A stretch of DNA of 64,000 nt from Levilactobacillus brevis (GTDB lineage Bacteria > Bacillota > Bacilli > Lactobacillales > Lactobacillaceae), in the NCBI GenBank assembly GCA_021383565.1, contig CP079699.1:434001-498000 (forward strand). Direction: 5' to 3'. This document shows positions 12,260-33,049 of this stretch, in pieces. Within the stretch, counting starts at the first letter, position 1, and each line of letters begins with the position of its first letter. The position numbers and the translations under genes are program-made. The notes below the pieces were generated by a model, which was given only the letters and a program-made list of their open reading frames with translations, made no database searches and was not told the origin of the DNA.

Positions 12260-12374
12260 GGCGTGGCTTATTGATTGAGAATCGAGAGCAGATAGGGTAT
12301 GCTGATGAAGACAAACTAACTAAAACTCGGGTGTTGGCGAAAATGAAATGCCGGTCTGACGGGATTTGTTTAGT
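12260..12374 (+). promoter_or_regulatory. Probable CRISPR leader
   Basis: Non-coding stretch abutting the first perfect repeat. The degenerate repeat is at the other end of the array, so this side should be the leader, where new spacers enter. TTGAGA (12275-12280), 17-nt spacer, TATGCT (12298-12303) could drive array transcription. It is short because thiI ends at 12218. Confidence 0.55.
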
Positions 12375-12890
12375 GTATTCCCCACAGGTGTGGGGGTGAT
12401 CCCTGGGCCGGAGCGACTTTTACTCGAAAAAACGGGTATTCCCCACAGGTGTGGGGGTGATCCCATTTCGGTCGAAATATAGGCTCGCCTGTGAATGTAT
12501 TCCCCACAGGTGTGGGGGTGATCCTGCATGTGTTCGCCGTTTTTCCGCTTGGTGAACGTATTCCCCACAGGTGTGGGGGTGATCCCACTTTATCTGGTCT
12601 CGTATTCAACTGTGAGTCGTATTCCCCACAGGTGTGGGGGTGATCCCAAGAGGACAGCTTCAATGACTTGTTTAATACCGTATTCCCCACAGGTGTGGGG
12701 GTGATCCCATTTGTTCTTAACTGGTTTAGAGAAAGACCTTGTATTCCCCACAGGTGTGGGGGTGATCCCGGGAAAATTCTGACGATTGATCGCGCTGCCA
12801 AGTATTCCCCACAGGTGTGGGGGTGATCCTGTGAGTCTTGTAGTCGCGTTCGGACGATCTACGTATTCCCCACAAGCGTAGGGGCGAAAC
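12375..12890 (+). CRISPR. Type I-E-like CRISPR array, 9 repeats and 8 spacers, no cas genes nearby
   Basis: 28-nt repeats start at 12375, 12436, 12497, 12558, 12619, 12680, 12741, 12802 and 12863, with an exact 61-nt period, so every spacer is 33 nt. The repeat reads GTATTCCCCACAGGTG then TGGGGGTGATCC; CCCCACA and TGTGGGG form the crRNA hairpin, and the form is that of type I-E repeats in lactobacilli. Repeats 1-8 are identical; the ninth differs in the second half (CACAAGCGTAGGGGCGAAAC), the sign of the leader-distal end, so the array runs left to right. thiI and tpx flank it directly and no cas gene occurs in the window. I saw no spacer match elsewhere in the window. Confidence 0.97.
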
Positions 12891-12923
12891 ACCAGAGTTT
12901 TTCACGAATTTATGGCAAAACAC

Positions 12924-16838: not shown

Positions 16839-18158
16839 TTGGTAGAAACGTACGCCGAAGCCCTGCAATTCATCCACGGCCGAGACCGGTTTAAGAAGAA
16901 GCCGACACTGGACCGGATGCGGCAGTTCATGCACATCTTGGGTGATCCGCAGGCACAGTTGAAGATGATTCATGTCGCGGGGACCAACGGCAAGGGGTCG
17001 ACCGTCGCTTTTCTCCGGGACTTATTCATGGCCGAGGGACAGACGGTCGGGACATTTACCTCGCCATTCATCACGCGGTTCAATGAGCGCATCAGCACCG
17101 ATGGCCAGCCGATTAGCGATACCGATCTGGTCGCCATGGTTAATCGGATTCAGCCGGTCGTGGCTCAATTGGACCGCGAGCTTGCCGAAGAGGGGCCCAC
17201 GGAATTTGAGATTGATACGGCCCTGATGTTCTGCTACTTCGCCAGCCATCCCGTCGACATCGTGATTGTCGAGGTCGGTCTGGGCGGCTTGTATGATTCG
17301 ACCAACATCATCACCCCAGCCGTATCGGTGATTACGACCATTGGCATGGACCACATGAAGATTCTGGGCGATACCATTCCTAAGATTGCCACGCAAAAGG
17401 CGGGGATCATCAAACCGGCGGTGCCGGTTGTCTGCGGTCGCCTCACGCCCGATGCCTTGGCGGTGATGGATCGAACCGCGGCCGACCAACACACGGATGT
17501 CCGGGCGTTGGGTCGCGACTTTAACGTTCAGAATCAACCCGAACCGGGGTGGGGCGAGCGCTTTGCCTACACCTGGGGCGATCATCGTTGGTGTCACCTA
17601 GAGATTGACCTATTGGGCCAGTATCAGATTGATAATGCGGCGACCGCGCTCACGGCCTTCATCACGTATCATCAGGTCCGACAACTCCCTGTCGACATCG
17701 CCGAGATTCGTGCCGGCTTAAAACACACGGCGTGGCCCGGTCGGTTTGAACGGTTAACAGCCGAACCGATCATCGCCATTGATGGGGCACACAATGAGCC
17801 GGCCATGGTGGAGCTGGCACAATTATTGCGGCAACATTTTGCGCAGCACGACATTTACATTATCCTCGCGGTGTTGGCAGACAAGCAATACGATCAGATG
17901 TTCCGCACGCTCCTCAAGGTCCAAAATGTCCACATCATCGTGACCCAATTTCAGGGGCCGGGTAAACGGGCCGCGGCAACCCCACAGGCCTTGGAAGACG
18001 CAGTGTCCTCGCACAAGCGGATGACCATGGCTGCGGATTGGCCCAGTGCGTTGAAGCAGGCATTGACCAACGTTTCAGCGGACGATCTGGTCTTGTTGAC
18101 GGGCTCTCTGTACTTTATTTCGGAAGTCCGGCAATATTTTAAAGATTCTGACGAATAA
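16839..18158 (+). CDS. folC: Folylpolyglutamate synthase / dihydrofolate synthase
   Basis: 439 aa. It ligates glutamate to dihydropteroate or folate with ATP, a Mur-ligase-like enzyme. The P-loop GTNGKGST is at residues 48-55; the folate and Mg sites are in the TSPFITRFNERI and EVGLGGLYDSTN blocks; the Mur-ligase C-terminal domain follows (DGAHNEPAM at about 311). The start is TTG (after GGGAGG), which gives the family N terminus MVETYAEALQFIH. It ends in GACGAATAA, which is also part of the 40-nt element shared with cinA upstream of radC. Confidence 0.95.
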   Translation: MVETYAEALQFIHGRDRFKKKPTLDRMRQFMHILGDPQAQLKMIHVAGTNGKGSTVAFLRDLFMAEGQTVGTFTSPFITRFNERISTDGQPISDTDLVAMVNRIQPVVAQLDRELAEEGPTEFEIDTALMFCYFASHPVDIVIVEVGLGGLYDSTNIITPAVSVITTIGMDHMKILGDTIPKIATQKAGIIKPAVPVVCGRLTPDALAVMDRTAADQHTDVRALGRDFNVQNQPEPGWGERFAYTWGDHRWCHLEIDLLGQYQIDNAATALTAFITYHQVRQLPVDIAEIRAGLKHTAWPGRFERLTAEPIIAIDGAHNEPAMVELAQLLRQHFAQHDIYIILAVLADKQYDQMFRTLLKVQNVHIIVTQFQGPGKRAAATPQALEDAVSSHKRMTMAADWPSALKQALTNVSADDLVLLTGSLYFISEVRQYFKDSDE

Positions 18159-18183
18159 AGTGCGTTCCTTTGCGGAGTTAGTC
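18144..18183 (+). promoter_or_regulatory. Element upstream of radC, shared with cinA
   Basis: 40 nt that align without gaps to 30529-30568 upstream of cinA, 31 of 40 positions identical, including the last 15 (TTTGCGGAGTTAGTC). It contains ACGAATA (18151-18157), one base short of the streptococcal competence box TACGAATA. The left part overlaps the end of folC. Confidence 0.6.
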
Positions 18184-18202: not shown

Positions 18203-18868
18203 ATGCAACGACAACGGGTGACCAGTACCAATGAACGTGAGCTAGTACGCCGAGTAGTCCGGCAGTTGGGATTAGCGCCGACTGCCGAAGTCGACCGCTT
18301 CTTTCGGTATTTTCAATGCGTCGCTAACCTGCGCTATGCCAGCCAACGCCAGTGTCAGCGCTACGTGGGCGGTAACGGTGCGCGGCGAACGTTATTGACG
18401 GCGATCGAGTTGGGACGGTGGGTGCAGCGTGCGCCCCGGCCCATCTACGGTGAGGTCTCGGCTAGTAGCCAGATTGGTGAGAGCCTGATGGACGATCTGC
18501 GGTACGCCCCGCAAGAGCGACTGGAAGTTCTGGCACTGGATGCCAAACACCGGGTGATTGACCGGCAAACGGTGTTCGTGGGCACGTTAGATAGTTGTCC
18601 TGTCCATCCCCGTGAGATCTTTAGGGTAGCGGTTATGACCGGCGCGGCGGCGATTGTGGTGGCACACAACCATCCCAGCGGCCTGGCCGAACCCTCGGAA
18701 AACGATCTGCAGTTCATGCGGCGCCTGGCGCGGTGTGGACAGCTCATGGGAATTCCCGTGCTCGATGGGTTTGTCATCGGCCTACGTACCTACTTTAGTC
18801 TGCGTGAGGCCGGGATTCTCCCACTCAAACAGGGGGCAAATAAGTCAGAAGGTTTAAAATCTGATTAA
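18203..18868 (+). CDS. radC: RadC family protein (JAMM/MPN+ domain)
   Basis: 221 aa. The C-terminal JAMM metalloprotease-like fold carries the full metal motif HxHx7SxxD as His155, His157, Ser165 and Asp168 (HNHPSGLAEPSENDL). The N-terminal 80 residues hold a weak helix-hairpin-helix-like region and lack the usual RadC opening, so it is divergent there. The true function of RadC is unresolved; despite its name a direct repair role is doubtful, and in streptococci it is a late competence gene. AGGGAGCTGAG precedes the ATG. It lies between folC and mreB, a common Firmicutes order. Confidence 0.93.
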   Translation: MQRQRVTSTNERELVRRVVRQLGLAPTAEVDRFFRYFQCVANLRYASQRQCQRYVGGNGARRTLLTAIELGRWVQRAPRPIYGEVSASSQIGESLMDDLRYAPQERLEVLALDAKHRVIDRQTVFVGTLDSCPVHPREIFRVAVMTGAAAIVVAHNHPSGLAEPSENDLQFMRRLARCGQLMGIPVLDGFVIGLRTYFSLREAGILPLKQGANKSEGLKSD

Positions 18869-30528: not shown

Positions 30529-30568
30529 GATTTTAACAAATAAATCGCGGCTTTTTGCGGAGTTAGTC
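30529..30568 (+). promoter_or_regulatory. Element upstream of cinA, shared with radC
   Basis: Ungapped match to 18144-18183 (31 of 40 identical; last 15 identical). The competence-box-like part reads ACAAATA (30536-30542) and sits 11 nt before TTTGCGG, the same spacing as at radC. The cinA start codon is 23 nt downstream. Confidence 0.6.
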
Positions 30569-30591: not shown

Positions 30592-31842
30592 ATGCAAGCA
30601 GAAATTATTGCGGTCGGAACGGAAATCTTGCTGGGACAGGTGGTCGATACGAATTCGGCCTACATTGCCCAGGGGCTCGCGGATGCGGGGATTGAAGTGT
30701 ACTATCACTCGCTGGTCGGCGATAACGCCGATCGGCTGACAGCGGTGGTGAATCAGGCCCGTTCGCGGAGTGACTTGGTGGTTATCAGCGGGGGCCTCGG
30801 ACCCACTAAGGACGATCTGACGAAGCAAACGGTCGCACAACTGCTGGGCGTCAAACTGGTTGAGGATCAACCGGCCATGGCAAAGATTCAACAGCACTTT
30901 GCGACGACGGGGCAGAAATTAACGCCTAATAACCGATTGCAGGCACTTTACCTCGCTGGCAGTGAACGGCTCCAGAATACAACTGGGATGGCTGTAGGGT
31001 CCTTTTATCGCGATCCACATGGGGCAGACTTGATGCTACTGCCCGGGCCACCCAGCGAATTGGAACCCATGTTTGAAAACGAAGCGTTGCCCCGGCTCAA
31101 GGCGGCCTACCGGCGACAAGAATTCTTGGTCTCTCGGGTGTTGCGCTTCTTTGGTATCGGGGAAGCGGAGCTGGTGACCCAGTTGGCCGACCTGATTGAT
31201 CAGCAGACCAATCCGACCATTGCGCCCTATGCCAAGGTTAACGAGGTAACGTTGCGGTTGACGGCGACGGCCCAGTCGACGGCGGCCGGCAACCAGCTAC
31301 TCGATCAGATGACGGCGACGATTCAAGACCGGGTAGGGGATTACCTTTACGGTTTTGGCGACGACAATAGTTTGGCCCAAGTGGTGGTCAAGACGCTGAT
31401 TGACCGGCAGTTGACGATTACGGCGGCTGAGAGTCTGACGGCCGGTAAGTTTCAAAGTACGCTGGGAGATGTTCCCGGCGTCTCGGCGGTCTTTCCCGGC
31501 GGCTTTGTGACTTATGCTAGCACGGCCAAGCACGACTTGTTGGGGGTCCCCCAGAACGTGATCGCCACGGACGGCGTGGTGAGTGCGGCCACGGCCAAAG
31601 AAATGGCGGAGCGGTCGCGACAGAAATTGGCCACGGATTTTGCGGTCAGCTTCACGGGGGTCGCTGGTCCCGATGCGTTGGAGGGTCAACCTGCAGGTAC
31701 CGTCTGGTTAGGCTTAGCGCAACGTGGTCAGACACCACAAGCCAAGTTGCTTCATCTGACAGGTAACCGGGCCAAGGTTAGAGAACGGGCGGTTATGCAG
31801 GCGTTGGACTGGCTCCGGCGTGTGTTAGCGGCACAAAAATAA
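30592..31842 (+). CDS. cinA: Competence/damage-inducible protein CinA
   Basis: 416 aa with both domains: N-terminal molybdopterin-binding-like COG1058 domain (residues 1-170, GTEILLGQVVDTNSAYIAQGL and SGGLGPTKDDLT), and the C-terminal PncC-like nicotinamide-mononucleotide deamidase domain (about 255-416, TAAESLTAGKFQSTLGDVPGVS). In streptococci CinA is a late competence protein that brings RecA to the membrane. CAGGAGGGG precedes the ATG. recA lies 91 nt downstream. Confidence 0.95.
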   Translation: MQAEIIAVGTEILLGQVVDTNSAYIAQGLADAGIEVYYHSLVGDNADRLTAVVNQARSRSDLVVISGGLGPTKDDLTKQTVAQLLGVKLVEDQPAMAKIQQHFATTGQKLTPNNRLQALYLAGSERLQNTTGMAVGSFYRDPHGADLMLLPGPPSELEPMFENEALPRLKAAYRRQEFLVSRVLRFFGIGEAELVTQLADLIDQQTNPTIAPYAKVNEVTLRLTATAQSTAAGNQLLDQMTATIQDRVGDYLYGFGDDNSLAQVVVKTLIDRQLTITAAESLTAGKFQSTLGDVPGVSAVFPGGFVTYASTAKHDLLGVPQNVIATDGVVSAATAKEMAERSRQKLATDFAVSFTGVAGPDALEGQPAGTVWLGLAQRGQTPQAKLLHLTGNRAKVRERAVMQALDWLRRVLAAQK

Positions 31843-31868: not shown

Positions 31869-31897
31869 TTGCTTTTTGACGAATAAATCGGTATAGT
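31869..31897 (+). promoter_or_regulatory. recA promoter
   Basis: TTGCTT (31869-31874), 17-nt spacer, TATAGT (31892-31897). The spacer contains ACGAATAAATCG, close to the competence-like part of the cinA element (ACAAATAAATCG). Confidence 0.55.
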
Positions 31898-31933: not shown

Positions 31934-33049
31934 ATGGCTGACGAACGACAAGCGGCGCTAGATAAAGCGCTGAAGAAAATTGAAAAAGACTTTGGTAAGG
32001 GTTCCATCATGCGGTTAGGTGACAACACCAATATGCAGGTGGAGACCGTGCCCTCTGGCTCGTTGGCCCTTGATGTGGCTTTAGGGGTCGGTGGCTATCC
32101 CCGTGGACGAATCGTCGAAATTTATGGTCCTGAATCTTCAGGGAAGACCACGGTTGCCCTGCACGCGGTGGCTGAAGTCCAGAAGCGTGGCGGTACAGCA
32201 GCCTATATTGATGCTGAAAACGCCCTGGACCCCGCCTATGCTACGGCATTAGGGGTCGACATTGACAGCCTGTTACTGTCGCAACCAGATACGGGTGAAC
32301 AGGGACTGGAAATTGCCGATGCATTGATCTCTAGTGGTGCCGTTGACATTGTGGTCGTCGATTCCGTGGCGGCCTTGGTGCCACGTGCCGAAATCGAAGG
32401 CGAAATGGGTGACGCCCACGTGGGGTTACAAGCTCGGATGATGTCACAAGCACTGCGGAAATTGTCTGGGTCGATTAATAAGACCAAGACCATTGCTCTG
32501 TTTATTAACCAAATTCGGGAAAAAGTTGGGGTTATGTTTGGGAACCCCGAGACGACGCCTGGTGGTCGGGCCCTGAAGTTCTATGCCACGGTGCGACTAG
32601 AAGTTCGCCGGGCAGAACAGATCAAGGACGGTACCGACGTGATTGGGAACCGGACGCGGATCAAAGTCGTGAAGAACAAGGTGGCTTCACCCTTTAAGCG
32701 GGCCGAAGTTGACATCATGTACGGTCAAGGAATTTCCCAGACCGGGGAACTCTTGGACATGGCGGTCGAAAAGGATATCGTAGACAAGAGCGGTTCCTGG
32801 TACTCTTACGGCGAAGACCGAATTGGTCAAGGTCGCGAGAATGCCAAGCAGTATTTGGCTGATCATCCGGACATGATGGCTGAAGTCAATACTCGCGTGC
32901 GGACGGCTTATGGCGTCAACGTGGATGGCGATGATGCCCCGGCACCTAAGAAGGCCGATGCTAAGGATGACACCAAGACCAAAAAAGAGGGCAAGAAGCC
33001 CGCAACGCAACAAAGTGAATTAATTCCGAACAAGCCGCAAGGCAAGTAG
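31934..33049 (+). CDS. recA: Recombinase RecA
   Basis: 371 aa. Walker A GPESSGKT at 65-72; Walker [12 protein letters not shown] and [14 protein letters not shown]; loop 2 region around [21 protein letters not shown]. The C-terminal tail (about 330-371) is Lys/Asp-rich low complexity. It drives strand exchange and LexA cleavage, the trigger of the SOS genes at dinB and ruvAB in this window. AAGGAGG precedes the ATG. A strong terminator follows. Confidence 0.99.

Follow-up and report, generated by a model that had tools for sequence, protein, structure and literature searches.

The two-part element upstream of radC and cinA is most likely a late-competence promoter of Levilactobacillus, read by a SigH of the ComX/SigH family, with AMRAAWWWW as its -35 part, (A/G)CGGAGTTA as its -10 part and transcription starting about 13 nt past the C of the box. 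Late-competence promoters of the SigH/ComX kind are known; the box itself and the additional regulon members appear to be new. A literature search, mostly of titles and abstract openings, returned neither a lactobacillar com box nor a paper describing the CGTA-type boxes of other Lactobacillaceae reported below. A single well-defined, genus-wide promoter makes the competence regulon readable from sequence, which bears on whether and how lactobacilli transform naturally. The promoter could serve as a reporter in the search for inducing conditions and points to new candidate competence genes, and its recurrence throughout the genus suggests that the competence system is kept in use.

A repeated element before radC, cinA and other competence operons

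Within the 64-kb window (the whole stretch of DNA that was analysed), positions 18144-18183 and 30529-30568 agree at 31 of 40 bases without a gap, and the 15-mer TTTGCGGAGTTAGTC that ends both stretches is identical at 18169 (before radC) and 30554 (before cinA). Our recount confirmed both of these statements of the original prediction, but RACRAATAAA and the 15-mer are separated by 9 nt and not by the 11 nt given there. About two exact 15-mer pairs are expected by chance in 64 kb, which makes the 15-mer alone unremarkable, against about 0.012 same-strand 40-mer pairs with at least 31 of 40 matches as judged by composition, and it is therefore the full 40 nt that count. Even with three mismatches allowed, the strict bipartite pattern was found in the 2.68-Mb genome at the radC and cinA places only; with a gap of 10 nt in place of 9 nt, the genome contained no match. 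One mismatch in the 15-mer alone adds the comFA place. A functionless likeness of two local sequences, due to chance or common descent, would fit the mere two occurrences of the strict pattern and the expected number of exact 15-mer pairs, but it is at odds with the low expectation for 31 of 40 matches and, strongly, with the recurrence of the element in further species and ahead of further competence genes, which makes it negligibly probable.

Before radC (18203..18868, + strand; PF04002, E 5e-38), the -35-like part ACGAATAAA occupies 18151..18159 (+), corresponding to columns 11-19 of the alignment A1 described below, gapless in 22 sites, and overlaps the preceding ORF (16839-18158) at its end, stop codon included. 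Downstream come a 12-nt spacer (18160..18171, +), constant in length in A1, and the putative -10 or com box GCGGAGTTA (18172..18180, +), which lies inside the 15-mer (18169-18183) and is the most conserved part of A1. Upstream of cinA (30592..31842, +; PF02464, PF00994, PF18146), alignment A1 places the -35-like part ACAAATAAA at 30536..30544 (+) and the 12-nt spacer at 30545..30556 (+), and A1 and the profile derived from it place the putative box GCGGAGTTA at 30557..30565 (+), inside the 15-mer (30554-30568); this is the best profile match of the genome (E 7e-9). We infer that RNA polymerase carrying SigH would bind AMRAAWWWW as the -35 part, contact (A/G)CGGAGTTA as the -10 part (com box) 12 nt further on and begin transcription about 13 nt past the box C. 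The pneumococcal ComX motif is described with a start 13 nt downstream of the C in MCGAATA (PMC6560143); by analogy, the predicted starts are about 18186 (+) for radC and about 30571 (+) for cinA, and the resulting leaders would measure about 17-21 nt and include the ribosome-binding site.

Allowing one mismatch or none, we counted 64 occurrences of the pattern TTTRCGGAGTTAGTC in the 35 genus genomes, spread over 25 of them; the reversed pattern gave 30. Thirty-one 15-mer loci were inspected (3 in the own genome, 28 in others), of which 22 are located upstream of radC (n = 7), coiA (n = 5), cinA (n = 3), a gene for a protein of about 160 aa (n = 3), comFA (n = 2), comEA (n = 1) and a RelA-like gene (n = 1), and eight are unrelated places; L017, before a secreted-protein gene, was kept out of the alignment because its upstream part differs. 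The 22 sites align without gaps (A1) and gave the sequence-only profile R1. They consist of an upstream part AMRAAWWWW, of which ACGAATA is only one form in A1 and among the genus sites, a fixed spacer of 12 nt and the nearly invariant downstream core (A/G)CGGAGTTA. When scored with its own gene class left out each time, the upstream part exceeds the 99th percentile of random sequence in all 22 training sites and in none of the eight unrelated 15-mer sites, an excess that may partly be A-richness, as the random control was mostly coding DNA. In the window, R1 gives cinA 42.5 and radC 33.9, and no other place more than 8.8. With the radC sites left out of training, radC keeps the second-highest score of the window (23.9, next 10.2); with the cinA sites left out, cinA keeps the highest (39.6).

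Across the whole 2.68-Mb genome, R1 yielded 13 matches, ten of them with E < 0.05 (150 of 858 first-look candidates scored). These ten precede cinA, comFA, radC, coiA, comC, comGA, rpsF-ssb, dprA, comEA and a gene for a secreted protein of 351 aa (L076); nine of the ten are thus at competence operons, and comC, comGA, ssb and dprA were recovered although they are absent from all training sites. The proposal that the element marks a competence regulon is borne out by this distribution, and occurrence at radC and cinA only holds for the strict pattern (up to three mismatches) but not for the profile with its ten places. Unrelated places account for just the other three matches (E 0.33, 0.54 and 1.07). 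The rpsF site lies 158 nt upstream of the gene, which is followed by ssb and rpsR. At the comFA place, a helicase gene precedes a phosphoribosyltransferase-like gene (Pfam match below cut-off), a pair that we take to be comFA-comFC. ComGA of the own genome is 83% identical to ComGA of an unclassified Lactobacillus and 79% identical to that of L. hammesii, relatives that put the genome within Levilactobacillus or beside it.

The original prediction had also included recA (named by eye; ORF 31934-33049). The motif GACGAATAAATCG is indeed present upstream, at 31878, but without the downstream box; the stretch GACGAATAAA (31878..31887, +) resembles the -35-like part only and is not a site. With a score of -20.3 on R1 (rank 2330 of 127,908 in the window) and no R1 match in its upstream region in the whole-genome search, recA was rejected as a direct regulon member. 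It starts 91 nt after cinA, with a weak A+T-rich terminator-like hairpin in between. Because the pneumococcal ComX site before cinA affects the entire cinA-recA operon (PMC6560143, Fig. 6 legend), recA could by analogy be induced indirectly from the cinA promoter. Overproduction of SigH in L. sakei raised recA 2.7-fold (PMC3364868).

Position of the box before comGA and radC across genera

We compared regions upstream of comGA among 16 Levilactobacillus loci and 56 outgroup loci (54 streptococci, one Atopostipes and one Allofustis). In 53 of the 56 outgroup loci, the distance from the beginning of CGAAT to comGA is 23-41 nt (median 25). For the C of the Levilactobacillus box, this distance is 25-39 nt in 10 of 16 loci, namely those with a plausible automatic start, the start of the other six being implausible or failed. 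About 25 nt before comGA, TTTRCGGAGTTA occupies the place of the streptococcal TACGAATA. Other Lactobacillaceae genera have CGTATTTA, CGTAATTA and similar sequences in the same region; these boxes share the gene-relative position and a common ACG-A--TTA frame with the Levilactobacillus box, but read CGTA where the latter reads CGGA. For other genera, we used the 30 top-ranking loci among 59 (comGA) and among 51 (radC) genomes with a match, minus own-genus loci and one truncated locus, and a match was accepted anywhere in the 110 or 140 nt upstream stretch. Under these rules CGTA-N1-2-T precedes comGA in 19 of 26 stretches (shuffles: mean 2.5, maximum 7) and radC in 24 of 27 (mean 4.7, maximum 10), with exact CGTATTTA or CGTAATTA in only 6 of the 27 radC stretches (shuffle mean 0.3). 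CGAATA is near background in the same stretches (comGA 1/26, mean 0.9; radC 3/27, mean 1.4), and it was found in none of the 16 Levilactobacillus loci within 110 nt before comGA. A further form, CGTAGTTA, is present in one metagenome-assembled relative as well as in L. parabrevis and L. fuyuanensis and is possibly an intermediate between the CGTA-type and the Levilactobacillus boxes. CGAATA, CGTATTTA, CGTAGTTA and CGGAGTTA make up a natural series for studying co-change of sigma factor and promoter.

The working core of the element is therefore very probably its downstream 15-mer half and not ACGAATA. The best reading is a Levilactobacillus-specific -10 part ACGGAGTTA, with ACGAATA 12 nt upstream in the -35 position. 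This reverses the original prediction on two points: ACGAATA had been taken as the counterpart of the streptococcal box, a place that before comGA is held by the 15-mer, and the downstream part had been taken as foreign to that box. As the 15-mer stands at the place of the streptococcal box and CGTATTTA-like boxes stand there in other genera, the downstream part would be the box itself, diverged. The earlier layout, with ACRAATAAA as the -10 com box, a start within the 9-nt gap and the 15-mer as a conserved 5'-leader element of competence mRNAs (acting as RNA or DNA), draws on the resemblance of ACGAATA to TACGAATA and on the location of the 15-mer directly upstream of the ribosome-binding site, and would place the starts at about 18164 (radC) and 30549 (cinA) instead of about 18186 and 30571. 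It is nonetheless unlikely, given that the upstream part is A-rich and variable and the 15-mer core nearly invariant, that CGAATA is missing before comGA in the 16 genus loci and near background elsewhere, and that the streptococcal distance to the gene is kept by the 15-mer and not by ACGAATA.

The reading of the 15-mer core as the -10 part brings the element close to the com/CIN box TACGAATA of streptococcal ComX (SigX), which is described for targets of the same kind, i.e., comG, comE, comF, coiA, radC, dprA and cinA (PMC6560143, PMC5167698), at the same distance from comGA and likewise with one main conserved core. It differs from these descriptions in the core (ACGGAGTTA versus MCGAATA), in having an A-rich -35-like part at a fixed distance where the pneumococcal motif has a T-rich stretch, and in the recA upstream region, which lacks the element here.

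SigH as the candidate reader

Two proteins with sigma region 2 (PF04542) are encoded in the own genome. The SigH-like factor passes the Pfam cut-off (33 bits, cut-off 24) and scores 29.9 bits against the NCBIfam SigH model TIGR02859 (cut-off 294.8) and 43.3 bits against NF006147 (cut-off 212), below both cut-offs. Its gene is part of the order SpoU methylase-yacP-sigH-rpmG-secE-nusG, in which the neighbours (SpoU methylase, YacP, L33, SecE and NusG) all exceed their Pfam cut-offs, and the same locus is described for sigH of B. subtilis and L. sakei (PMC3364868). A sigH match was found in all 35 genus genomes. The aligned SigH stretch contains stops in 14 of the 35; in the 12 of these that were checked (all except G001 and G033), the stops are confined to aligned residues 1-28, ahead of the conserved region. 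SigH similarity correlates with the number of sites (rho 0.50 for 35 genomes, 0.45 without the incomplete G007), but both values ignore kinship and were given no weight.

SigH is a well-motivated candidate reader of the element, since sigH is found in its usual locus and SigH overproduction in L. sakei strongly induces the com operons and dprA (PMC3364868), so that a SigH-family factor from the same locus acts there on targets that carry the element here. The two systems differ at ssb, which is hardly induced in L. sakei (PMC3364868) and belongs here to an rpsF-ssb operon with the element. The main text of the L. sakei paper mentions no motif, consensus or box; com genes were turned on there by SigH overproduction without detectable transformation (PMC3364868).

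SigH promoters of Bacillus and Listeria follow RMAGGRWWW-N11-12-RRMGAAW (PMC4754846) and share with our element the two-part layout, the spacing class (12 nt) and, in Listeria, competence targets. The Levilactobacillus -35 part lacks the AGG of this consensus, however, and the -10 part reads GGAGTTA where the consensus has GAAW. By hand count, agreement with the consensus (PMC4754846) is about 5/9 for the -35 part and 4/7 for the -10 part at a 12-nt spacer, and 7/9 for the -35 part if a 13-nt spacer is allowed. As the spacing agrees and the letters do so only partly, the element is not a canonical SigH promoter. The reverse assignment, with the 15-mer as a SigH -35 part and GAAT downstream of it, was discarded because the distances misfit (by eye).

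The link between SigH and the site is indirect, and a transcription factor or another sigma factor might bind the same two-part site, SigH being incidental. In keeping with such a reader, a simple scan found no sigma-70-type promoter within the site or in the neighbourhood of radC and cinA. Given only two region-2 proteins in the own genome, this reader could only be an activator, or else a sigma factor missed by PF04542. The position of the element matches that of the streptococcal ComX box, which is read by a SigH-family factor, SigH controls the com operons in L. sakei (PMC3364868), and the non-palindromic two-part layout with its 12-nt spacer suits a sigma factor, all of which render a reader other than SigH very improbable.

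Recurrence in the genus and candidate additional regulon members

Scanning the genus with R1 (E ≤ 5, 150 candidates scored per genome) gave 1 to 21 matches in each of the 35 genomes, four genomes having one weak match each. Among the best 30 loci, BLASTP linked 28 to a reference gene; of the other two, one belongs to an MqsA-like operon (L052) and one is without assignment (L063). All 13 loci L089-L101 from three genomes were assigned, and a further 40 listed places in five genomes all fall into recurrent gene classes. Known competence genes make up 24 of the 40 (comFA 5, radC 4, comGA 4, comC 3, comEA 3, rpsF-ssb 3, cinA 1, coiA 1); the other 16 comprise a small protein with Fic (n = 4), an MqsA-like class (n = 4), sites antisense to a protease gene (n = 4), secreted proteins (n = 2) and a family of about 149-160 aa (n = 2).

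In the Fic class (L194, L200, L213 and L224 in G013, G006, G005 and G002, respectively), the putative promoter precedes a protein of 76-96 aa without a Pfam match, downstream of which L200 and L213 have a Fic-domain protein (in L213, PF02661 exceeds its cut-off); the small protein presumably resembles the VbhA-type Fic inhibitor. In the MqsA-like class (L201, L204, L208, L052 and L192), a 115-aa protein without a family match is followed by one that matches the MqsA antitoxin family (TIGR03830) weakly and below cut-off; in L192 the second gene alone was seen and not the 115-aa protein. Strong sites at L186, L196, L203 and L211 are oriented antisense and point into the 3' end of a gene for a matrixin-like protease (at L196, with a PF00413 match above cut-off). 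Two loci of this class were examined, L186 and L203 being placed in it by resemblance, and these sites possibly drive a competence-linked antisense or small RNA. Members of the 149-160 aa family follow the promoter at L012, L016, L018, L205 and L217 and gave no match to Pfam (L012, L205) or NCBIfam (L205). Secreted proteins with the promoter or the 15-mer were seen at L076 (own genome), L099, L017, L190 and L223, the L099 protein ending in an LPXTG-like anchor (below cut-off), and RelA/SpoT-like proteins of about 200 aa follow the promoter at L037, L096 and L101 (PF04607 just below cut-off for L037).

Tentatively, and with somewhat less than even confidence, we propose that the SigH box drifted from CGTATTTA-like forms through CGTAGTTA to CGGAGTTA and that the regulon was widened by the Fic protein with its small partner, the MqsA-like, RelA/SpoT-like and LPXTG/secreted proteins, the 149-160 aa family and the antisense promoter. 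If so, entry into competence would also trigger a growth-control programme.

Outside the genus, the R1 search under stricter filters (41 candidates scored per genome) gave one weak match in each of eight other-genus genomes (E 5e-4 to 0.008), none of them before a reference-recognised competence gene; two genus members in the same sample had no R1 match under those filters. Two of the eight weak matches (L081, L087, in two genomes of another genus) precede a gene that resembles ribosomal protein S10, named by eye, and are probably unrelated to competence.

Elsewhere in the window, positions 12374-12900 contain a CRISPR-like array of nine copies of GTATTCCCCACAGGTGTGGGGGTGATCC at 61-nt spacing, the last copy being degenerate; the repeat resembles those of type I-E.
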